From Candidatus Melainabacteria bacterium RIFCSPLOWO2_02_FULL_35_15 (GTDB taxonomy: Bacteria; Cyanobacteriota; Vampirovibrionia; 2-02-FULL-35-15): a stretch of DNA of 35,165 bases. The notes beneath the pieces are model-generated. The model saw only the letters and a list, made by a program, of their open reading frames with translations, did not search any database and was not told the DNA's origin. Shown piece by piece: positions 2,131-28,627 of this stretch. How positions within the stretch are numbered: position 1 is the stretch's first letter; each line of letters begins with the position of its first letter. The stretch is from the NCBI GenBank assembly GCA_001784585.1, contig MFRN01000011.1, forward strand, positions 1-35,165, written 5' to 3'. The translations under genes were made by a program, and so were the position numbers.

Positions 2131-3507
2131 TTATTCCCCTAATGCAGATTTAACTCTCAATTTGGTAGTCCAATTAACCAGCATTATTGCACACCATACA
2201 AGGAGTGAATGCAATGCAAATCCTTTGTATAAGGTCTTAGTATGAAGATCCTCTGCTTCTTTATGAAATTGCTCTTTTGTCTTTTCATCCATATCTTTAC
2301 TATCTTTATCTACCCTGTTTAATACCTGATGAATTCTTGCCGGCTCAGGACATAAATATTTCAGATTCTCCCAGAAATCTTTTGTAACAATATCCTTAGG
2401 TCTTATACATTCTTCACTAACCAGAATTCCCTCTTTTACCTTATATTTATTTGCTAAGTACTTATCTGCATTTTTTGCTAATATTCCATTTGTTATTCTA
2501 TGACCAAGCCACCAGGAAGGAAGTATTGTAAAAAACTTAAAGATTCTTTCAACTCTCTCATACCAGCCCTGAGTTGTAATAAAAACACCAAGCCACTTTG
2601 GCACTGAAGTGTAAGTAAATAAAAGACCAAGTTTTGGATAAACTCCGTGAGTCATATCTAACTGACTGTCAATCAATGAGAGGAACCTGTTATTTTGTAC
2701 CTTATTTTTGTCTTTGGTTTTATTAAGAAAAATTGTGTTTAAGACAGGTGACAAAAGGATAGAGCTTACACCCCCAATCTTTTGAAACCAGTTTAATTCT
2801 CCACCTTCGCCAATCTTACTGCTATCTGAATCACTTAAATAACCCATAGTCCCAGTAAATCTACCCTTCTGCAAGATATACTTTCTAAAAAATCTTAAGC
2901 TAAGCCCAAAACTTCCCCAAACTCCACCCTCAATTAAACTTTCTCCAAGTATTACAGCTTTTTTTAGCCTGTATATTTTATCTCTTTGTGCTTCTGACAA
3001 TTTGCATCTTTTACAGAAATCTGTTATTTCATCTGCCTGCAAAGAATGGTATTCAGCCTGTTTTTCTTTATTTTCCATATTCTTATACAGCTCAGAAATT
3101 CTTCTTTGATCGCTTGGTTCTTCCTCAAGGATCCTTCTTAAGCCTTTCTCTAGCTGGGTTTCATTAGTTAACTCAGACATTTGAAATCTTAAATAATTAA
3201 CAGCATCTTTTTGCTCTTCTTTTGATAGGATAGATTTGCCTGCTAATTTCCCGATAAATGATGTAATTCTTGGAGCAAGGAAAATCATTACCGTACCAAT
3301 ACCAGCTTCCCAAAAAGCTTCCATAAAATTCCAAAAATTTCTAAATGCTGCAGCTGCTAAAACAGGTATATCAAAAGCTGATAAATCTAAAGCCAGTCTG
3401 TAGGTTGACTCACGCGAATCAATTATCTTTGCATAGTTTTTAGCTAAGCTTAAAAATCTATTCCATCTGGATTGCGTGTTTGGATTTGTTGCTGAAATAG
3501 GAGTCAT
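2131..3507 (-). CDS. Hypothetical multi-helix membrane-associated protein
   Basis: A 458-residue protein starting with ATG at 3507. I do not recognise a family. Hydrophobic or amphipathic segments appear around residues 48-60 ('PVLAAAAFRNFWNFMEAFW'), 65-80 ('EAGIGTVMIFLAP'), 190-210, 240-265, 330-350 and close to the C-terminus ('ALHSLLVWCAIMLVNWTT'). Between about 100 and 185 lies a charged helical region ('LRRILEEEPSDQRR') that may form a coiled coil. The short Cys-rich stretch 'DFCKRCKL' at about 163-170 has a CxxC spacing, but no second pair is evident. The gene stands alone on its strand and is convergent with the small membrane gene at 1894-2124. Probably lineage-specific. Confidence 0.6.
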   Translation of the reverse strand: MTPISATNPNTQSRWNRFLSLAKNYAKIIDSRESTYRLALDLSAFDIPVLAAAAFRNFWNFMEAFWEAGIGTVMIFLAPRITSFIGKLAGKSILSKEEQKDAVNYLRFQMSELTNETQLEKGLRRILEEEPSDQRRISELYKNMENKEKQAEYHSLQADEITDFCKRCKLSEAQRDKIYRLKKAVILGESLIEGGVWGSFGLSLRFFRKYILQKGRFTGTMGYLSDSDSSKIGEGGELNWFQKIGGVSSILLSPVLNTIFLNKTKDKNKVQNNRFLSLIDSQLDMTHGVYPKLGLLFTYTSVPKWLGVFITTQGWYERVERIFKFFTILPSWWLGHRITNGILAKNADKYLANKYKVKEGILVSEECIRPKDIVTKDFWENLKYLCPEPARIHQVLNRVDKDSKDMDEKTKEQFHKEAEDLHTKTLYKGFALHSLLVWCAIMLVNWTTKLRVKSALGE

Positions 3508-4500: not shown

Positions 4501-5280
4501 ATGAATCCACCCAGAATTGTTTCCTGTTCCCCTGCTCACAGTGAAATTATTTGTTTATTAGGCAGGCAAGATTTAATTATAGGTAAAACAGCCTACTGTG
4601 ATTTTCCGAAAGATTTATTAAAAGAAAAACCCATAATTGGTTCATGGATAAAACTTAATTATGAATTAATTGAAAAATTAAAACCGGATTTAATTATTAC
4701 AAACAGTATTGTTCAGGAAAAGGTAGCTATAAAACTGAAAGAAACTGGTTTTAATGTTTATCATTCTGATCCGTTAACCTTAGAACAAATCTATGCAGAT
4801 ATTCTGGAAATCGGAAAAATAGTAAATAACAAAAACCATGCGGAAGAATTGGTTGAAAATATTAAAAGCCAATTAAATGAGATTAAACAAAACAGTCCTT
4901 CAAAGATTTTAAAGCCAAAAGTTTATATAGAAGAGTGGCATGATCCTCCTACAATTTCAGGAAACTGGATTCCTGAGCTTGTACAAATTGCAGGTGGGGA
5001 TTATGGACTAATGAAAGCAGGCAAAAGAAGTAAACCCATCAGCATTGACAAGCTTTTTGAATATAATCCCGAAAAAATAATTATTTCCTGGTGTGGATTT
5101 GGTGAAAAGGTAGACACAATACAGGTACTAAACAGATCTGGCTGGGATTTACTAAATGCAATAAAAAATAAACAAATTTTTGTGGTTGATGATAACCTTT
5201 TAAACAGGCCAGGAGCAAGAATAGTTGAAGGAGCAAAAAAATTACAGGAAATATTTTTCAGCAAGGTACCTGCAAGATAA
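4501..5280 (+). CDS. BtuF-like (TroA superfamily) binding protein without signal peptide
   Basis: A 259-residue protein of the helical-backbone metal-receptor family (COG0614: cobalamin, siderophore and metal binding). It opens directly with the fold's first strand ('RIVSCSPAHSEIICLLG'), followed by 'LKPDLIIT' and, near the C-terminus, 'NRPGARIVEGAKKLQEI', all family hallmarks. There is no signal peptide or lipobox, and no ABC permease or ATPase partner nearby, so it is probably cytoplasmic. Bacterial cobalamin-binding proteins without export signals exist in this family, but the ligand cannot be read from sequence. No clear Shine-Dalgarno precedes the ATG. It ends 6 bp before the RNase J-like gene and may be the first gene of that run. 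Confidence 0.7.
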   Translation: MNPPRIVSCSPAHSEIICLLGRQDLIIGKTAYCDFPKDLLKEKPIIGSWIKLNYELIEKLKPDLIITNSIVQEKVAIKLKETGFNVYHSDPLTLEQIYADILEIGKIVNNKNHAEELVENIKSQLNEIKQNSPSKILKPKVYIEEWHDPPTISGNWIPELVQIAGGDYGLMKAGKRSKPISIDKLFEYNPEKIIISWCGFGEKVDTIQVLNRSGWDLLNAIKNKQIFVVDDNLLNRPGARIVEGAKKLQEIFFSKVPAR

Positions 5281-5286
5281 TTTAGG

Positions 5287-6972
5287 ATGAAAACAAAAGA
5301 TATATTAAGAGCTATTCCATTGGGTGGACACGGTGAAATTGGAAAGAATTCATGGATTCTTGAAAGTAAGGGTGAAATCTTAATTATAAATTTCGGAATG
5401 ATGCTCCCTGGTTTTGATTTGACAGGAGTAGATTTGATTTTGCCAAGCGCAGCTTATTTAAGCGAAAACCAGTCACAAATAAAAGGATTGGTACTGACTT
5501 CTGCTCATGATGATTCTTCCGGCGGAGTGTTTTACCTTTTAGATAAAGTAAAAATTCCAAAAATTTGGGGTTCAAAACTTGCTCTGGAAATGTTAAAGTC
5601 TCAGATTAAACATATAACCTTACCGGAATGTGAAGAGCTTGAGCCAAGAAAAGAATTTAATGCAGGAGAATTTAATATTCTTCCTGTAAGAAATACCTCT
5701 GTGCTTTCTGATACATATGGATTATATGTTAAACATTCTACCGGAAATGTTTTATACACTGGTTCTTATAAGATTGATCAAACTCCTCTTGATGGTAATC
5801 TTCTGGATTACTATACTTATTCTAAAGCCGGGGAAGATGGCGTAGATCTTTTGATTAGTGACTCTACAAATATTGAAACACCCGGATACTCACAATCAGA
5901 GCGCTCTATAACAAAGAAATTTGATGAAATTTTCAAAGAATCTGCTTCCAGAGTAATTATTGTTAGTTATGCAAACAATCTGCATAAATTTCAAATTATC
6001 TTTAAATCAGCACAGAAAAACGGAAAAAAAGTTTTTCTCTCCGGAGAGTACCTGGTAAATAAGGTTCACACAACAATTGATGCAGGTTTTATGGATTGTG
6101 ATAAGAAATTATTTGTACAGGAAAAAGATCTTGAAGGTTTAAAAGATAATGAAGTCGTTATTCTGGCTTCAGGAAAGTATGGAGGATTTTTATCTGCCTT
6201 AATTAGCATTGCAAAGCAGGAACATCCTCAAATTAAAATAAAACCAAAAGATATTGTAGTAATTAGCTCTAATCCTCCACCAGGAACAGCCAGAATACTT
6301 GCTCATACAATAGATCAGTTTTTTGTTCAAAAGGTACAGGTCATTGGAGGACGCGGACAAGGAGTACACGCCTCAGGTCATGCTGCGCAGGAAGAAGCAA
6401 AATTTATGCTTACTGTTGCCAAACCCAGGTCATTTGCTCCTTCGCATGGCGAGGAAAGACAGCTTGTCCAGTATGGAAATATTGCAGAGATGATAGGGGT
6501 TAGCGCAAACGATATTCATATTTTAAAAAATGGTGATGTTCTTGAACTAAGGGAACAGGTTGCAAGGATAGCAAATAAAATACCAGCTCAGTCTATTTAC
6601 TATAACCAGGCACAAAAACTGGACATAGATGAAACCACCATGAAAGAAAGAATGACATTGTCTGAAGAGGGAACTATAACTATAGCGCTTGCTCTGGATA
6701 AAAAAAGAAATATAATTGCAGGCCCTGAAATTTTAGCTGAAGCCTGTTCCTTTGCAAAAGGAAAAGACTGGAGAGCATTTTGTCTCGGGACAATAGAGTT
6801 GATAAAAGATTCAATAAAGCAGGCAGTTGAAAGAGAAGAAAAGGAAATTTTAAGTTTAAAATCAATTATTAGGGATGTAGTAAATAAAAGTGTTTTAGAG
6901 CTTATTAACAGAAGGCCTTTAATTAATGTTTCAATACAGGAAATATGTCAGAAGATCGAGATAAAAAAATAG
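5287..6972 (+). CDS. Ribonuclease J family protein with degraded active-site motifs
   Basis: A 561-residue RNase J-type protein with metallo-beta-lactamase, beta-CASP and C-terminal domains. Family signatures are 'IPLGGHGEIGKN' near the start, 'LLISDSTNIETPG' at about 188-200, 'HASGHAAQEEAKFML' at 361-375 and 'PSHGEERQLV' at 385-394. Several metal ligands are lost. The usual T-H-G-H-E-D-H motif reads TSAHDDS (71-77), so the first and last His are Ser. The His of the 'TTHSIPDS' motif is Ser138, and the Asp of TGD is Ser160. RNase J2 of Bacilli is a known partner with a weakened motif, so this may be a structural or regulatory partner of an active RNase J encoded elsewhere. The SpoU-type gene overlaps its 3' end by 28 bp. 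Confidence 0.85.
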   Translation: MKTKDILRAIPLGGHGEIGKNSWILESKGEILIINFGMMLPGFDLTGVDLILPSAAYLSENQSQIKGLVLTSAHDDSSGGVFYLLDKVKIPKIWGSKLALEMLKSQIKHITLPECEELEPRKEFNAGEFNILPVRNTSVLSDTYGLYVKHSTGNVLYTGSYKIDQTPLDGNLLDYYTYSKAGEDGVDLLISDSTNIETPGYSQSERSITKKFDEIFKESASRVIIVSYANNLHKFQIIFKSAQKNGKKVFLSGEYLVNKVHTTIDAGFMDCDKKLFVQEKDLEGLKDNEVVILASGKYGGFLSALISIAKQEHPQIKIKPKDIVVISSNPPPGTARILAHTIDQFFVQKVQVIGGRGQGVHASGHAAQEEAKFMLTVAKPRSFAPSHGEERQLVQYGNIAEMIGVSANDIHILKNGDVLELREQVARIANKIPAQSIYYNQAQKLDIDETTMKERMTLSEEGTITIALALDKKRNIIAGPEILAEACSFAKGKDWRAFCLGTIELIKDSIKQAVEREEKEILSLKSIIRDVVNKSVLELINRRPLINVSIQEICQKIEIKK

Positions 6973-7460
6973 CTGATTATTTTTCATGGACGCATCCTTT
7001 TGCAGTAGCTGTATATAACATTTCAAAAGAGTTTAATATCGGTTCTCTGCTTAGAACAGTACATTGTGCTAAAGGCAGGGAATTTTTTTTAATTGGAGAT
7101 AAAAGTTACAACACTTACGCAGCTGTTTCCAGTGACAAATGGACAAAAGTGAATTATTTTGAAAACCTGGATGATTTTCTTTTATTTGTAAAAAGCAGTG
7201 ATTATAATCTGATTTTAGTTGATCAGTCAGAAAACTCAGAGTCTTTGTTTGAATTTAATTATCCGGACAATCCTTTATTTTTCCTTGGGGCTGAAAAAGG
7301 CGGATTGCCGGCATTGCTTAAAGAAAATGGTGGCTTTCCTGTTCTTGAAATACCTCAATATGGGTTAGTTCATTCATTAAACTTATCCTGTTCAGGAAGT
7401 ATTGTAGTATATCATTATTTGTATAAGCTATATATGAAAAATTTGACTGCAAACAAATGA
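6945..7460 (+). CDS. SpoU/TrmH family (SPOUT) RNA methyltransferase
   Basis: A 171-residue SPOUT-fold 2'-O-methyltransferase. Motif 1 is 'NIGSLLRTVHCAKG', with the conserved Asn and Arg. Motif 2 is 'PLFFLGAEKGGLP', and motif 3 is 'LVHSLNLSCSGSIVVYHYL', which forms the knotted SAM pocket. The protein is about the length of a bare catalytic domain, without the N-terminal substrate-binding domain of RlmB or TsnR, so the target (tRNA or rRNA) is open. The start lies 28 bp inside the end of the RNase J-like gene, and the stop overlaps the next start by four bases, so the three genes are very likely one transcript with coupled translation. Confidence 0.85.
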   Translation: MSEDRDKKIADYFSWTHPFAVAVYNISKEFNIGSLLRTVHCAKGREFFLIGDKSYNTYAAVSSDKWTKVNYFENLDDFLLFVKSSDYNLILVDQSENSESLFEFNYPDNPLFFLGAEKGGLPALLKENGGFPVLEIPQYGLVHSLNLSCSGSIVVYHYLYKLYMKNLTANK

Positions 7461-7891
7461 AAGATCCCTATTTAAAACCTGTAATTTTTGGTGGGTTATT
7501 AATTACACTGCTTTCAGTTATTTTTGCCCCGGCTATTTTTTTATGGGCAATAACAGGAGGCTATGTGGCTGTCAGAATTGCAAATAAAATCACCAAAGAA
7601 ATTATGTCTATGAGAGATGGTCTTTTTTTAGGTTTATTTTCAGGCATTACAGGTGGAACCTGTTTAGATATTCTTACTTTAGTTTCTTTCAGATCAACTG
7701 ATAATCAACGCATGCTGATTAGGACACTGGAAAAAAATTGGCCAAAAGAAGCAGGTTCTGCGCCAAATTTTCCGGAGTTATTACCTGCTTTGTTTTTAAC
7801 TACCAGTATTTTTGTAATTGTTATTGCTGTATTATTTGCTGTAATTGGTGCCTATGGCGGGATCTTAGTATCACGCCGTAAGATCTCGTAA
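7457..7891 (+). CDS. Hypothetical small membrane protein
   Basis: A 144-residue protein with about four hydrophobic segments: residues 8-25, 27-40, 55-72 (Gly-rich, 'GLFSGITGGTCLDIL') and 108-137. The ATG overlaps the preceding stop (ATGA), indicating translational coupling to the SpoU-type gene. No family is recognised; the Gly-rich helix pair resembles small DUF-type integral membrane proteins. The last codons lie inside the palindrome at 7880-7923, which supplies the 'KIS' C-terminus and the stop codon. Confidence 0.65.
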   Translation: MKDPYLKPVIFGGLLITLLSVIFAPAIFLWAITGGYVAVRIANKITKEIMSMRDGLFLGLFSGITGGTCLDILTLVSFRSTDNQRMLIRTLEKNWPKEAGSAPNFPELLPALFLTTSIFVIVIAVLFAVIGAYGGILVSRRKIS

Positions 7892-10130: not shown

Positions 10131-10165
10131 ATGATAAATTAGGATAACATAAGGACGTAATGTAT

Positions 10166-13087
10166 ATGCTCAAGTTACTGGAAAAATTATTCGGTGAAAA
10201 TAATGAAGCTAAAGTAAAGGCTGTTCAGCCTTTACTTGAAAAAATAAACAGCTTAGAATCAGAAGTATCAAAACTAACAGATGATGAACTTAAAGCAAAA
10301 ACTCCATATTTTAAAAACATAATAGATAATAAGCTTAAGGGTGTCGAAGATAAGTTGCTGGTAGCTGAAGATACTCCTAAAATCCCCGGAATCATTAGAA
10401 CAGCAAGGGACAAGGCTACATTTGAAGTTCTGGGTGAGATTTTACCTGAAGCTTTTGCACTGGTTCGGGAAGTTTCAAAAAGAGTTTTAAATATGAGACA
10501 TTTTGATGTGCAGCTTATGGGCGGTATTGTTCTTCATGAAGGTAAAATAGCTGAAATGAAAACCGGGGAAGGTAAGACACTGGTTGCTACATTGCCGGTT
10601 TATTTAAACGCTTTGTGCAGGCGTGGTGTTCATGTAGTTACTGTAAATGATTATCTTGTAAAACGTGACGCTGCCTGGATGGGGAAGATTTACAACTTTT
10701 TAGGAATGAGTGTCGGGCTGGTTATCCCCCATCAAAAGAAAGCAGAAAAATTACTGTCTTATAAGGCTGATATTACTTATGGTACAAACAATGAATTTGG
10801 TTTTGATTATTTAAGAGACAATATGGAAACAAATTTAAAAAACTGTGTTCAGAGAGATTATTTTTATGCAATTGTAGATGAAGTAGACAGCATTTTAATT
10901 GATGAGGCCAGAACTCCGCTTATTATTTCAGGTATGCCTACCCGCAGCCAAAGAGAAATTTACATTACTATGGCAAAACTTTCTTTGAGACTTAAAAGAG
11001 GAAAAGATAAGGATGATCAAAACTGTGATTACTGGGTAGATGAAAAAGCCAGAAATGTGGTTTTTACTGATAGTGGAATTAAAAATGCCGAGAAATTACT
11101 TGGTATTGATGATTTATGGGATATACGTGCAAACCTGGCCCATAATTTATTGCAGGCATTAAAAGCAAAAGAACTTTTTAAAAGAGATACTGATTATGTG
11201 ATTAAGCCTAATCCGGAAAATAATAATAAGCTGGAAGTAGTAATTGTAGATGAATTCACAGGAAGACTGATGATGGGACGTCGTTGGAGTGATGGTTTAC
11301 ATCAGGCTATTGAAGCTAAGGAATCAGTGCCGATTCAGGAAGAAACTCTGACTCTTGCCAGTATTACCTTTCAAAATTTATTCAGACTTTATCCAAAGCT
11401 TGCAGGCATGACTGGTACTGCTTATACAGAAAAGGATGAGTTCAGAAAAATCTATAATCTCGATGTAGTTACTATTCCTACCAATAAGAAAAATATCAGG
11501 GAAGATATTGATGATCAGGTTTACAGGACAGAAAAATATAAATTTTATTCCTGTATTGAGGAAATAGTAACAACTCATCTTAGTGGCAGGCCTGTACTGG
11601 TAGGAACTGTAAGCATAGAAAAATCAGAATTAATTTCCGAGATGTTGTCAAAGCCCCAGACAATGACAAAAGTTATGCAGGAAAACGCACAGAGAGTTTT
11701 AAGAATTTTAAAAGAAAGAAAAATCAATAATGAACAAACCGAAAAATTAGTAAAACTCTTGGACAGACCGGGAAATTTAAAAGATGCTGATATTAAACCA
11801 ATTATTGAACAGCTTAAGAATACATATAAGGATAGTGAACTTGAGTTTATTCTGGACAGGTTTGAATCTTCAGTGGTAGTAGTAGAAGCAGTTAGAAATA
11901 AAATTCCCCACAATGTTTTAAATGCTAAAAACCATGAGAAAGAAGCTTATATTGTTGCTCAGGCAGGAAGATTCGGAACAATTACAATTGCTACAAATAT
12001 GGCCGGTCGCGGTACAGACATTATCCTGGGTGGAAATCCGGAATATTTAACAGCAGAGGCTGTGATGAAATTTAAATTAGACCAAAACAGTCAGGAGTAT
12101 AAAGATAAGTGGAAAGAATTATTCAGGAAATTTAAAGATGAATGTGAACAGGAACATGAAAAAGTAGTAGAACTTGGCGGGCTTCATATTATAGGTACTG
12201 AAAGGCATGAATCCAGAAGAATAGATAACCAGCTTCGGGGAAGAGCTGCCAGACAGGGAGATCCGGGTTCTACCAAATTCTTTTTATCTCTGGAAGATAA
12301 TTTAATGAGAATCTTTGGAGGAGAAAAAATTTCTCAGATTATGACTTTTCTTAAAGCAGAAGAAGATTTACCTATTGAAGCCAAGATGGTTACGACAGCA
12401 GTGGAAGGAGCACAAAAGCGGGTTGAAGCTCATAACTTTGATCTTAGAAAACATGTTCTGCAATATGACGATGTAATGAATACCCAGAGAGAAGTAATAT
12501 ACAGAGAAAGAAGAAGAATATTAGAAGGTGCAGATATAACCGATTCGATCCTTGAAATGATTGATATTCATATGCAAAATATTTTATATGCCCATATAAA
12601 TCCTGAAACTCCGTCAGAAAGCTGGCAGGACGAAGCTTTGCCAAATTTGTATAAAGCTCTACGGGCAGATTTTCCTGTATTAAATAACACTGTAACTATT
12701 GAATCACTTAATTCCGGATCTTTTAATGAGCTAAAAGAGATTTTAAATCAAGCCGGGTTAGATGCATATTCTATTAAACAAAAAGATTTAGGACCTGAAA
12801 ATATAAAAGAAATTGAACGGCAGATTATGCTTCATGTAATTGATTCTAAGTGGGTAGATCATCTGCATAATATGGATGCTTTGCGTGATGGCATACACTT
12901 AAGAGGCTATGGTCAAAAAGATCCGTTAATGGAATATAAAAAAGAGGCCTTTGACATGTTTGAACAGTTACTTATAGATGTAAAACGTGAAGCAGTGGTA
13001 TTGCTTATGCATGCACAGATTGAAGCGGTAGAAGGTAACAGTGAGCAAGGTGAAGAAAATCAGGAAGATGAAGAAATCAGAGTTTGA
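10166..13087 (+). CDS. secA: Preprotein translocase ATPase SecA
   Basis: The motor ATPase that drives proteins through SecYEG, about 973 residues. Walker A is '[14 protein letters not shown]' and Walker B is '[18 protein letters not shown]'. The preprotein crosslinking region, the '[13 protein letters not shown]' arginine-finger motif and '[20 protein letters not shown]' are all intact. About 80 extra residues, mostly helical and charged, lie in the second nucleotide-binding domain (DNA about 11650-11897), between '[15 protein letters not shown]' and '[15 protein letters not shown]'. The Cys-rich zinc tail for SecB binding is absent; the protein ends in an acidic tail. I chose the ATG at 10166 ([10 protein letters not shown], as in relatives), 10 nt after AAGGA; the ATG at 10160 is an alternative. 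The 3' end overlaps accC by 28 bp. Confidence 0.97.
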
Positions 13088-24330: not shown

Positions 24331-25083
24331 TCAAGTCTTATCCACCAGCTTTGAAACCAGTCTATCCAGTTTTTCATTTGTCTTTTTTACCTGTTCTAAA
24401 ACTTTTTTATGTGATGGCTTATGTCCGGGATTCCAGATATTGCTAATTACTGATATTCCTGCATAGTCCAGTCCTAAGCTTTTTGCACAGATTATTTCAG
24501 GCACAGTTGACATACCTACAGCACTTACACCAAGTAACCGGAAAAGTTTTATTTCTGCAAATGTTTCATAAGAAGGACCCAACACACCGGCATAAACTCC
24601 TTTTTTAACTGTTGAGTTAAAAGTATTTGATATCTTTTTAGTCAGACTTGACTTTATTTTAAAAGGAGCCTGAATAATGCCACTTAAAGTACCTCTTTCA
24701 GTGGTTTGCATAAGATCAATAAACCCGGTTATTAACATTAAATCTCCGGCTTTAAAATTTTTATTTATTCCGCCGGCAGCATTTGTAATTATTATTTTTT
24801 TTACTCCCAGATTATAAGCAAGTCTTACGTTACTGGTTACATCACTGAAGCTTAGTCCTTCGTATAAGTGGCGCCTCCCGGAAAAAACCAGTATGTGTTT
24901 ATTGTTGATTTTATAAAGCTTTGATTTGCCTTCATGTCCTTTTATTGAAGCATTTAACTCACTATATTTAACTTCAAATATAGGCTCTTTATCTCTGAAT
25001 AGCGTTATCCCCGAGCCGGTTATAATTGCAATTTGAGGTGCTGCTTTGATTTTTTTCAATTGTTTTAACAGAAAGTTATTCAT
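24331..25083 (-). CDS. punA: Purine nucleoside phosphorylase (trimeric type)
   Basis: A 250-residue PNP/MTAP-superfamily enzyme that splits purine nucleosides with phosphate. It shows 'IAIITGSGITLF', the phosphate-site 'FSGRRHLYEG', 'IITNAAGGI', 'YAGVLGPSYETFAEI' and 'AVGMSTVPEI', and the base-contact Asn in 'ISVISN'. These match the PunA type rather than MTAP. In the futalosine pathway a separate nucleosidase acts on aminofutalosine; nothing here shows that this enzyme does. Its 5' end overlaps the divergent glycosidase-like gene by 38 bp if that gene starts at the TTG. Confidence 0.9.
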   Translation of the reverse strand: MNNFLLKQLKKIKAAPQIAIITGSGITLFRDKEPIFEVKYSELNASIKGHEGKSKLYKINNKHILVFSGRRHLYEGLSFSDVTSNVRLAYNLGVKKIIITNAAGGINKNFKAGDLMLITGFIDLMQTTERGTLSGIIQAPFKIKSSLTKKISNTFNSTVKKGVYAGVLGPSYETFAEIKLFRLLGVSAVGMSTVPEIICAKSLGLDYAGISVISNIWNPGHKPSHKKVLEQVKKTNEKLDRLVSKLVDKT

Positions 25084-27436
25084 TTTTCTTTTTGTTTTGT
25101 TTCTTGCTTTAATTTGTAGTTTAACAGACGCCAGGGCGTCTGAAAAAATCGGCGTATTGTACAGTTACAAAAATGTTGAAACCTACAACAGTAATAATAT
25201 TGTCGGGTTTCAGCAGGTCTGGAAGTCGTTTCTTGAGACATTTGAAGGAACAAACTTAGATTATCAGTTTATATGTAATATTACTCCGGAAACAAAAAAA
25301 ACAGATTTGGATGCAAATATTATTTTTTTTCCGCTTGCAATTGATATAGATTCAAATGAGCTGGGGTTTTTAAAAGATTTTTTAAATTCCGGAGGGAAGC
25401 TGGTTATAAGCTCCGGTATTGGTCCGGTCTCTGAAAATTTGAAAACTTTCTTGTCTGAACAAGGAATTGATATAAGTGAAAATGTGATTGCAAAAGGTGA
25501 ACTTAAATTAAAACACAGAACTGACGAAATTCTTTTTGAACTGCCTGTCGGGAATTTTTATTCTATATTTGAAATCCGCGGTAGTACAAAAAAAATTATT
25601 GCAAGGTGGAAGGAAACAAACCGGCCGGCAATCGGCAGCTCAAACAATACAGTTTACATAGGTTACAGCTGGGGACAGGATGTGGACACAAAAAATGATA
25701 TTGCAGCATTTCTCAAAACTATTGATTATTTTTGGGATAACATTTCATTTGACATAACAAAAAAAATATCAAATGAGGAATATAAAAAAATTGTAAAAGA
25801 AATCAATGCACTAAAATCAGAAGCTGCCCTGGTAATTCAAATTTCTGAACAGCTTGATTTGTCGGTACCTAAATATCTGTTAAAAAAACATTTTAGCGAC
25901 GGGCTGGATTTTTTTAATAGTTTTAATTCAAATTATCTCTTTGGTAATTATAAATTAGCCAGAGAAGATGCAAGCTCTGCAAAAAATGAGCTTGCATTTG
26001 TTTATTCCCTGGGTATTCCTGTAAGAAAAGTAGAAGTTCGTGCTATCTGGCTTGATCGGGGAAGTATTGTGGCATGCAAAGATGCAGTTGAGCTTAGAAA
26101 TTTGATTAAAAATCTTTCCCGTATCGGATTTAATGTAATATTTTTTGAAACAGTTAATGCCGGCTATCCGATTTATCCCTCCAGACTTCTTCCACAGAAT
26201 CCGCTTATTAAAGATTGGGATCCGTTAAGAGTAGCTATAGATGCTGCTCACGCATATGGAATGGAACTTCATGCCTGGGTCTGGACATTTGCTGTAGGAA
26301 ATACCAGGCACAATTTACTTGTAAATAAACCAGTTGAATATCCAGGTCCTGTAATTTCTACTAAGGACAAAAGCTGGGCTTTAGCAGGTCAGGACGGGCA
26401 GCTAAGAGTAGAGTTGCAGCCTGAAACCTGGATAAGTCCTGCAAATAAGAAAGCATGTGAATTTTTACAGGAATTATTTAGTGAAATAGTAACAAACTAT
26501 GATGTGGACGGTTTTCAGTTTGATTATGTAAGATTCCCGTTTCAGAAAACTTATTCTCAGGTTGGTTTTGATTTTGTCACTAAAAATGCTTTTCTGGAAG
26601 CGACTGGTAAAGCACCTTCGCTGGAAGGAAAGAACAACAGAATCTGGAGAGACTGGAAAGCTACACTTGTAAGTGATTTTGTAAAAGATACAAGTACTAA
26701 ACTCCGGACAATAAAACCAAATTTAAAAATATCAGCTGCGGTTTTTGCTCTTGACAGGACTCTTAGAATGCAGCTAATTCAGCAGGACTGGGAGACCTGG
26801 CTTATAAACAGATGGATAGATATCGTTTATCCGTTTTATTATTCTTATACAAAAGATGAAATTAAAACAAAGCTTTTAAGGGAAAGAGAACTGGTTAATG
26901 ATAAGGGAATTATTATTCCTGCTTTTAATCTGCGGGTTTTAAGTCTTGGCGAGCTGGCAGAAAGGATAACCCAGGCAAGGAATGCAGGTGTTTTAGGAGT
27001 AGCTTTATTTGCTTCAGAACATTTAGATAATGTTAAATCAAATCTGCTAAAAAATGGCCCGTTTCGTGAGAAAACAATTTTTACCCCGTATGAAAAACCA
27101 ATTCCTGCCTGTCAGAAATTACTGGATGAGTTCAATTCAATAATTGAAAAACTTGCACTTACAGGGCAGATGCAAGGACAACCATTACTTTCTGTCCTGT
27201 CTGAAAGTCAGACGCAGAAAGAAGTTTATTATTTAACCCAGGATTTAAAGGAAGAACTTGACAGGTATAGCCCTAAGCTCGCAAATGAAATTGAAAGAAA
27301 GCTTATGAATCTTCAGTTAAAAGTAAAAGACTGGCTTAGTTTGGAAAAATACCTGGATCGTGATCAAAGAGCTATGTATATAAGCAGTTACCTTGATCAA
27401 GTAAAAACATTATTAAATTATATAAGAAATGAATAG
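25046..27436 (+). CDS. Secreted family-10-like glycosyl hydrolase (COG1649/GHL10)
   Basis: A 796-residue exported protein. The signal peptide spans about 1-31 ('LFIFLFVLFLALICSL' then 'DARA'). An N-terminal ThuA/GATase-like domain (about 34-240) follows, then a helical linker. The GHL10 (DUF187) TIM barrel starts at 'RKVEVRAIWLDRGSI' and includes 'NVIFFETVNAGYPIYPS', 'GMELHAWVW', 'YDVDGFQFDYVRFPF' with the conserved Asp residues, and 'DIVYPFYYSYT'. The C-terminal 120 residues are helical. Such enzymes are common in Cyanobacteria and are thought to act on cell-wall glycans. The start is TTG at 25046, the only one giving a full signal peptide. An 18-bp inverted repeat (25125-25142) lies at the cleavage-site codons. 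Confidence 0.85.
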   Translation: MIFFNCFNRKLFIFLFVLFLALICSLTDARASEKIGVLYSYKNVETYNSNNIVGFQQVWKSFLETFEGTNLDYQFICNITPETKKTDLDANIIFFPLAIDIDSNELGFLKDFLNSGGKLVISSGIGPVSENLKTFLSEQGIDISENVIAKGELKLKHRTDEILFELPVGNFYSIFEIRGSTKKIIARWKETNRPAIGSSNNTVYIGYSWGQDVDTKNDIAAFLKTIDYFWDNISFDITKKISNEEYKKIVKEINALKSEAALVIQISEQLDLSVPKYLLKKHFSDGLDFFNSFNSNYLFGNYKLAREDASSAKNELAFVYSLGIPVRKVEVRAIWLDRGSIVACKDAVELRNLIKNLSRIGFNVIFFETVNAGYPIYPSRLLPQNPLIKDWDPLRVAIDAAHAYGMELHAWVWTFAVGNTRHNLLVNKPVEYPGPVISTKDKSWALAGQDGQLRVELQPETWISPANKKACEFLQELFSEIVTNYDVDGFQFDYVRFPFQKTYSQVGFDFVTKNAFLEATGKAPSLEGKNNRIWRDWKATLVSDFVKDTSTKLRTIKPNLKISAAVFALDRTLRMQLIQQDWETWLINRWIDIVYPFYYSYTKDEIKTKLLRERELVNDKGIIIPAFNLRVLSLGELAERITQARNAGVLGVALFASEHLDNVKSNLLKNGPFREKTIFTPYEKPIPACQKLLDEFNSIIEKLALTGQMQGQPLLSVLSESQTQKEVYYLTQDLKEELDRYSPKLANEIERKLMNLQLKVKDWLSLEKYLDRDQRAMYISSYLDQVKTLLNYIRNE

Positions 27437-27547: not shown

Positions 27548-28627
27548 ATGTTTATTTTTCAAATAGATCCAGCAAAAGTTACAGGTGCAGAAAACAGAAA
27601 AGGTGCTTCTAATGAAATTAAAAATCCGGATTCAGTTTTATTAAACTCATTATCACAGACCTCTGAAGTAAGACCCATTAAACCACCTATTTCACCAGAG
27701 ATGTTGCTTGGGAAAATTATGGATTTATCAAATGAATATATTATTTATGCAAAAACTCATCAGAATTGGTATCGAAATGAAACTGACAAAGATGCAGATA
27801 TAGACAGACCTATACTACTGCCTCCTCCATGGGAAAGATCAAATGAATTATACGAAGCACTGGCACAATACACCAAGACTCCTGCTTCTCTTGAAAACAT
27901 AAATAATGTTAAATCTTTCTTTTATAGAATTATGGAAAATAGACCGGTTGATCCAAATCATGATGGCAAATTAGATCATAGTGATGTTCTTACTATTTGG
28001 GGAGATTACGACGGTGGGAAGATAATTAAAGGTGACATAAACGGTGATGGCCAGGTTAATCAGGAAGACGTTAATAGGCTTAGAAAGGCTCTTTTTATTG
28101 GAGATATGGACAGAGATGGGAAACTTGATGAGAAAGATTATGAAAAGTTAAAAAAAATAATAGATTCTCCTCCTCCTACCATTAGACCGTTAGAGCGTAT
28201 TTCACTTCCCTGGGGAATAAAAGGAGATTTAAATCATGATGGACAACTAGATAAAAAAGATCTTAATATTCTTAAGCATATTCTAAGAGCAGGAGATATG
28301 GATGGCGATGGGAAAATTGATAAGGCAGATGTAGAGCTTCTCATCAACATAGTAGGTAATCAAGATCCTTTACCTAAGATCAAAGATTTATCTAAAGCTT
28401 TATTGGAAGATCCATATCATCATCTGCTACAGATCCCGGAATTAGGAAAAGCATTAGCTAAGTACACAAATACTGAGTATAATCTTGGAAAAGCAGACAG
28501 ACTAATTAGCTTTTTCCTGCGGGAAAAAAGTGATTTAACCGGCGATGGAGTAATAGACTATCAGGATGTTATTGCTTTTTGGAAGAGTTTAGATCGTCCA
28601 GGTCCTATTCCACTAAAAGAGAATTAA
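27548..28627 (+). CDS. Dockerin-type EF-hand repeat protein without signal peptide
   Basis: A 359-residue protein with six DxNxDG-type calcium loops, starting at residues 135, 163, 186, 227, 250 and 329. Examples are 'DINGDGQVNQED' and 'DMDGDGKIDKAD'. Loops 2-3 and 4-5 form two dockerin-I-like pairs that resemble each other. Outside them, a segment around 100-155 ('LYEALAQYTKTPASLEN', 'DVLTIWGDYD') resembles the segment at about 299-350 ('LGKALAKYTNTEYNLGK', 'DVIAFWKSLD'), giving an A-B-B'-A' layout. There is no signal peptide, lipobox or membrane helix, and no cohesin gene is in the window. Calcium binding is well supported; the partner and location are unknown. Strong AGGAGGG ribosome-binding site. 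Confidence 0.75.
   Translation: MFIFQIDPAKVTGAENRKGASNEIKNPDSVLLNSLSQTSEVRPIKPPISPEMLLGKIMDLSNEYIIYAKTHQNWYRNETDKDADIDRPILLPPPWERSNELYEALAQYTKTPASLENINNVKSFFYRIMENRPVDPNHDGKLDHSDVLTIWGDYDGGKIIKGDINGDGQVNQEDVNRLRKALFIGDMDRDGKLDEKDYEKLKKIIDSPPPTIRPLERISLPWGIKGDLNHDGQLDKKDLNILKHILRAGDMDGDGKIDKADVELLINIVGNQDPLPKIKDLSKALLEDPYHHLLQIPELGKALAKYTNTEYNLGKADRLISFFLREKSDLTGDGVIDYQDVIAFWKSLDRPGPIPLKEN

Follow-up and report, generated by a model that had tools for sequence, protein, structure and literature searches.

Firmicutes such as Staphylococcus aureus, S. epidermidis, Bacillus subtilis and Enterococcus faecalis carry, beside an intact RNase J1, a second paralogue with a degraded active-site motif, RNase J2. 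The two metals of S. epidermidis J1 are coordinated by D78, H79, D164 and H390 and by H74, H76, H142 and D164, respectively (PMC7864078); the J2 of this species, despite its substitutions, is still active and holds a single Mn (PMC7864078). For E. faecalis J2, either of the single exchanges H69A or H71A abolishes activity, and catalytically dead mutants still bind J1 with nearly unchanged affinity (PMC5383250). In S. aureus, the active site of J2 is dispensable while deletion of J2 is harmful, and a mainly structural role has been proposed (PMC3937233). Why RNase J should enter hetero-oligomers with a weak or dead paralogue has yet to be settled, as J2 is not wholly dead and its activity is hard to separate from a scaffolding role.

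A comparable arrangement is found among the eukaryotic 3'-end endonucleases, where the metallo-beta-lactamase (MBL)/beta-CASP pseudoenzymes INTS9 and CPSF100 co-occur with their active paralogues INTS11 and CPSF73. INTS9 has lost three of the four HxHxDH ligands, and both INTS9 and CPSF100 are held to their active partners by C-terminal domains (PMC7980224). In RNase J itself, the C-terminal domain has been reported as necessary for the B. subtilis and Thermus thermophilus enzymes to oligomerize, while the Mycobacterium tuberculosis enzyme dimerizes without needing it (PMC10119312). In the papers that we searched, none linked RNase J with Melainabacteria.

Identification of a degenerate RNase J paralogue

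The window analysed here is a stretch of 35,165 nucleotides (contig MFRN01000011.1) from a melainabacterial genome of 1.94 Mb that is 99% complete. Positions 5287–6972 of its forward strand hold an uninterrupted frame of 561 codons, free of frameshifts, which encodes a protein with metallo-beta-lactamase, beta-CASP and C-terminal domains. We refer to this degenerate copy and its orthologues as J', to the intact RNase J copy as J, and to the families of the class as f1 to f8, with f1 being the window's own. An earlier note, made from the sequence alone, had taken the protein for an RNase J paralogue, and this assignment is well supported: residues 9–550 match the RNase J family profile TIGR00649 with 417.1 bits (curated cut-off 400), and residues 8–552 match B. 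subtilis RNase J1 (PDB 3zq4; E 5.6e-99). Three Pfam domains (PF22505, PF07521 and PF17770) score above their cut-offs in the order typical of RNase J, with E-values of 2.3e-27 for RNase_J_b_CASP and 1.8e-12 for RNase_J_C and an additional match to RMMBL, while MBL profiles remain slightly below theirs. The C-terminal domain implicated in oligomerization (PF17770) is encoded at 6619–6969 (+). One divergent f7 orthologue reaches only 205.7 bits against TIGR00649, below the cut-off. AlphaFold2, run on J' as a single sequence, returned a pLDDT of 33 and a pTM of 0.22, and no structural argument is based on this model.

Using S. epidermidis J1 numbering as the reference for the seven metal ligands (H74, H76, D78, H79, H142, D164 and H390; PMC7864078), four are lost from J' in the window: H74 is replaced by S72, H79 by S77, H142 by S138 and D164 by S160. 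The first two losses fall within codons 72–77 (5500–5517, +), where S72-A73-H74-D75-D76-S77 stands in place of H-x-H-x-D-H, so that ligands 76 and 78 are kept as H74 and D76. Ser138 (5698–5700, +) occupies the position of the third-motif histidine, and Ser160 (5764–5766, +) that of the metal-bridging aspartate of the TGD motif. The third retained ligand is His387 (6445–6447, +; H390 in J1), which is lost in most other families. Close to the bridging position, Lys162 (5770–5772, +; K166 in J1) is invariant in all 67 J' and all 73 active J sequences counted. The residues had thus been read correctly in the earlier note, including the loss of most metal ligands and the persistence of His361, His365 and His387; of these, however, only His387 is a metal ligand. 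His361 and His365, which had been counted towards the metal site, belong with Ser363 to the H361-A-S363-G-H365 stretch (6367–6381, +), which by alignment retains the 5'-phosphate pocket triad H364/S366/H368 of J1; J1 H364 and H368 were studied in S. epidermidis as phosphate-recognition residues and not as metal ligands (PMC7864078). With four ligands gone, J' would be unable to build the two-metal centre, and RNA cleavage by it is therefore most likely absent.

The note had also suggested searching the genome for a further RNase J whose motif is intact, and exactly one other RNase J match was found (G000:C35:111445–113082). A lack of any other RNase J, named in the note as part of what would refute its reading, is thereby excluded. 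It shares 36% identity with J', scores 604.7 bits against TIGR00649 and has all its motifs intact (HGHEDH, NTHSIAD, HSGDFKFD and PAHGEYR). Like the RNase J of other Cyanobacteriota, this J belongs to the same family as J' and has the same domain order, but it keeps the ligands H142, D164 and H390 together with HGHEDH. The genes for J and J' are unlinked in this genome, which also encodes RNase E/G, as do 39 of the 40 relatives searched; a search of the same genome for RNase Y found none.

Ligand loss across orthologues

The pattern seen in the window extends to J' as a whole. Among 66 orthologues, position 74 is occupied by Asn in 50 and by Ser in 16; D, N, S, F or Y, but in no case His, occurs at 142; and at 164, Ser predominates and Asp is absent throughout. 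Because the loss of these three ligands recurs in every one of the 66, it cannot be attributed to chance, and its being common to all J' suggests that it preceded the split of the families. Three of the seven ligands are retained in 6 orthologues, two in 47, one in 11 and none in 2. The retained set differs between families, the seven-ligand string being SHDSSSH in f1, NHEHDSL in f2 and NKTHYTI in f7, where each copy retains 0 or 1 ligand; this variation leaves no common replacement metal site. In f2, the largest family, N-x-H-x-E-H is conserved together with D or N at position 142, which could conceivably bind one metal, so that residual or altered activity could persist there. For J' in general, a non-catalytic role, as proposed in the earlier note, is strongly supported by the sequences.

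The earlier comparison with Bacillus J2 likewise holds, in that the decay of J' both goes further than that of Firmicutes J2 and differs from it. In Firmicutes J2, the first two histidines and that of the third motif are present, one metal is bound and activity is weak (PMC7864078, PMC5383250), whereas ligands 74, 142 and 164 are always lost from J'. In S. epidermidis, J2 is changed at 78, 79, 164 and 389 and keeps 74, 76 and 142, making its substitutions nearly complementary to those of J'. Nor is the J2 signature, in which H74 and H76 are retained while D78 is replaced by H, H79 by A and D164 by E, seen in J' of the window, where the corresponding five positions read S-H-D-S-S.

Distribution and origin

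RNase J-family genes were found in 78 of 194 genomes of the melainabacterial class. When the fetched copies were sorted by their ligands, 64 of these 78 genomes had one intact and one degenerate copy, and one further genome (G004) paired an intact copy with only a fragment of J', located at the end of a contig. An intact copy alone was seen in 8 genomes, one of which (G136) has a second match whose sequence was left out of the sorting, and a degenerate copy alone in 5. Two of the latter (G037 and G130) contain pieces of J on other contigs, and assembly gaps therefore account for at least part of the single-copy genomes; G026 (93% complete) is the sole J'-only genome of at least 93% completeness without a trace of J. 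Most of the genomes without one copy of each kind are incomplete assemblies. Two intact copies were seen in none of the 78 genomes. In a search of the phylum, a single copy was found in each of the 131 genomes from other classes that have an RNase J, and the 19 copies that were read were all intact.

Neither J nor J' was found in f3, f5 and f8. Since these families form one clade, the absence counts as at most one event, and we have discounted the joint loss of J and J' as evidence for pairing. One half of the class (for example G012, G014 and G017) is thus without RNase J; f5 has RNase Y instead, and f3 and f8 have RNase E/G with neither J nor a strong RNase Y match.

Placement in an RNase J tree, which the earlier note had called for, resolved J' as one clade: in a tree of 101 sequences, all 39 J' lie on one side of a branch with a support of 100. 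After removal of the seven ligand columns and of the long-branch f7 copies, the support was 100/99. Within J', f2 (with f7) separates from f1, f4 and f6, and the same split is seen in active J and in a SecA species tree, the latter placing the J-bearing families in a clade of their own (support 100/99), to which f3, f5 and f8 are sister. Long-branch attraction was considered as the source of the J' clade; the clade survives both removals, and its inner order is that of the species tree. A duplication inside the class, with J' grouping with the J of the same class, was not rejected (p-AU 0.42), though the exact point at which J' attaches is uncertain. On the simplest reading of these trees, a single duplication of RNase J probably took place at the base of the J-bearing clade, before the five families diverged, and we propose that J' has been inherited vertically beside the intact RNase J since these families split.

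Selection and domain constraint

J' is under purifying selection, which is strong outside f7, as indicated by a dN/dS of 0.034–0.089 in seven pairs and 0.15 in f7, with active J at 0.02–0.06. The two copies differ in where this constraint lies. When J' was compared with J in 29 non-overlapping pairs of genomes, each pair from within one family, its catalytic domains evolved 2.4-fold faster (median), whereas the rate of its C-terminal domain was 0.87-fold that of J; active J is accordingly the slower copy in its catalytic domains and similar or faster in its C-terminal domain. The J'/J rate ratio of the core exceeded that of the C-terminal domain in 27 of the 29 pairs (Wilcoxon p 2.6e-7). Constraint in J' has therefore shifted toward the C-terminal domain. 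The C-terminal-domain rates of J and J' are weakly correlated (partial rank correlation 0.28, n = 29). In addition, G49 and D51, which by alignment are the likely equivalents of the Deinococcus interface residues Gly59 and Asp61, are invariant in all 67 J'.

Residues associated with RNA contacts are less evenly conserved. The H-S-H phosphate triad is intact in 8 of 10 J' of f1 and in 30 of 44 of f2, and is broken in f4, f6 and f7, so that RNA binding by J' is plausible but not uniform across families. All five J' of f6 (L043, L045, L046, L047 and L052) have N-terminal tails of about 65–115 residues that are rich in R, G, N and S. Such tails are absent from J' of the other families and resemble disordered RNA-binding or condensate-forming tails.

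Proposed role and alternative explanations

We consider J' to be an RNase J pseudoenzyme, and the explanation that we favour as the likeliest is that it serves as a non-catalytic partner subunit of active RNase J. Following the duplication, ligands 74, 142 and 164 would have disappeared from the copy that became J' ahead of the family divergence, and this copy would then have been passed on beside J, retaining its overall fold, its C-terminal domain and, in f1, the 5'-phosphate pocket. Through the C-terminal domain, it would join active RNase J as a non-catalytic subunit, and it may thereby influence how the active subunit assembles, is fed with RNA or selects 5' ends, similar to what has been proposed for staphylococcal J2 with respect to J1. 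A physical partnership between J and J' is indirectly suggested by the constraint on the C-terminal domain together with the co-retention of J' with J. Several points count against the partner model: the two genes are unlinked, the rates of the two C-terminal domains are weakly correlated, dimerization in Mycobacterium does without this domain, and a J' homo-oligomer would conserve it equally. Because the selection data agree equally well with an RNA-binding homo-oligomer that acts alone, our confidence in the partner model is moderate.

Such a homo-oligomer, holding or shielding 5'-monophosphorylated ends or acting as a scaffold with RNase E without touching RNase J, is in our view unlikely, though it deserves serious consideration. 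It would agree with the phosphate triad in most J' of f1 and f2, with the f6 tails and their likeness to RNA-binding disordered regions, with the near-ubiquity of RNase E/G among the relatives and with the unlinked genes of J and J'. Yet, the broken triad in f4, f6 and f7 means that end binding by this triad cannot be the shared function, and J' nearly always occurs with J, G026 alone among the five J'-only genomes combining high completeness with the lack of any trace of it. That J' is still a nuclease, with an altered single-metal centre as in Firmicutes J2, we regard as very improbable. S. epidermidis J2 provides a precedent (PMC7864078), J' of the window retains H74, D76 and H387, and the conserved motif of f2 with D/N142 could be read in this way. 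Against this, every J' lacks the first His, the third-motif His and the bridging Asp, whereas J2 retains its first two histidines as well as that of the third motif; loss of just one of two motif histidines is sufficient to inactivate E. faecalis J2 (PMC5383250); and the retained ligands vary by family, down to 0 or 1 in f7, leaving no common alternative metal site.

Orthology of J' with Firmicutes RNase J2, by vertical descent or transfer, would account for the presence, in both groups, of a J1-like copy with intact motifs and a second, degenerate one, but has still less to recommend it: the bit score of J' is higher against RNase J1 (335 bits) than against S. epidermidis J2 (252–257 bits), the substitutions of J' and J2 are nearly complementary, and our tree, which contains no J2 sequences, does not reject a grouping of J' with J of the class. 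We therefore treat J' and J2, which occur in different phyla, as probably of separate origin. Finally, the loss of catalytic residues and an evolution faster than that of the active paralogue might be expected of a decaying pseudogene or of an assembly or annotation artefact. Hardly any weight attaches to either: the frames are open and full-length in five families at a dN/dS of 0.03–0.15, on which grounds we reject a pseudogene, the clade is as old as the families, its C-terminal domain is conserved as in the active enzyme, and the same losses appear in dozens of independent assemblies.

A dead RNase J-like partner is a known kind of protein, of which J', assuming the non-catalytic partner role, is probably a more degenerate, clade-wide example of separate origin. 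Like INTS9 and CPSF100, it is an MBL/beta-CASP pseudoenzyme accompanying an active paralogue, although those proteins belong to another beta-CASP branch. Tentatively, the non-photosynthetic Cyanobacteriota might have evolved their own obligate pair of active and inactive RNase J, a separate bacterial case beside CPSF73/CPSF100, INTS11/INTS9 and J1/J2, in which the dead subunit became fixed across five families, its C-terminal assembly domain came under relatively more constraint than its core and RG-rich tails resembling RNA-binding regions were gained in one family. If this pairing is true, the beta-CASP family would have converged repeatedly on the combination of an active and an inactive subunit, in bacterial RNA decay and eukaryotic 3'-end processing alike. 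As dozens of natural pairs have a second copy devoid of shared catalytic ligands, a purely structural role is testable in this clade.

Gene neighbourhood and other features of the window

J' is preceded by a gene for a BtuF/TroA-like binding protein (Peripla_BP_2; 4501–5280, +), which ends 6 bases upstream, begins without an obvious signal peptide and is found in the same place across f1. The end of J' is overlapped by a gene for a SpoU/TrmH-type RNA 2'-O-methyltransferase of 171 aa (6945–7460, +), followed by a hydrophobic protein of 144 aa (7457–7891) that lies downstream of the methylase across f1 and has no Pfam or NCBIfam match. The order of BtuF-like protein, J', SpoU methylase and membrane protein is kept in nearly all f1 members; outside f1, the neighbours of J' differ (e.g., mfd in f4), and the link to an RNA methyltransferase proposed earlier is weak. 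The linkage is thus local to f1 and no guide to the function of J', and we have dropped it as a functional clue. A scan for promoters and terminators gave results at chance level only.

Elsewhere in the window, the frames at 55–1614 (519 aa) and 2131–3507 (458 aa) have no Pfam match above the cut-off, with relatives of the latter located at the same place in two congeners. In one congener, a further gene for an MBL-fold protein (L003, 305–1717), whose LTHAHLDH motif is intact, lies roughly 6 kb upstream of J'; the window has no such gene at the corresponding place. A GHL10 glycoside hydrolase-like protein (25046–27436) precedes a protein of 359 aa (27548–28627) with dockerin type I and EF-hand-like matches, which are unexpected in this lineage. 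SecA of the window (10160–13087) appears to contain an insert of about 80 residues (about 498–579), as its alignments are interrupted at residues 497 and 579 when the compared SecA is from f5 or another class, whereas those to the other families of the class run through.
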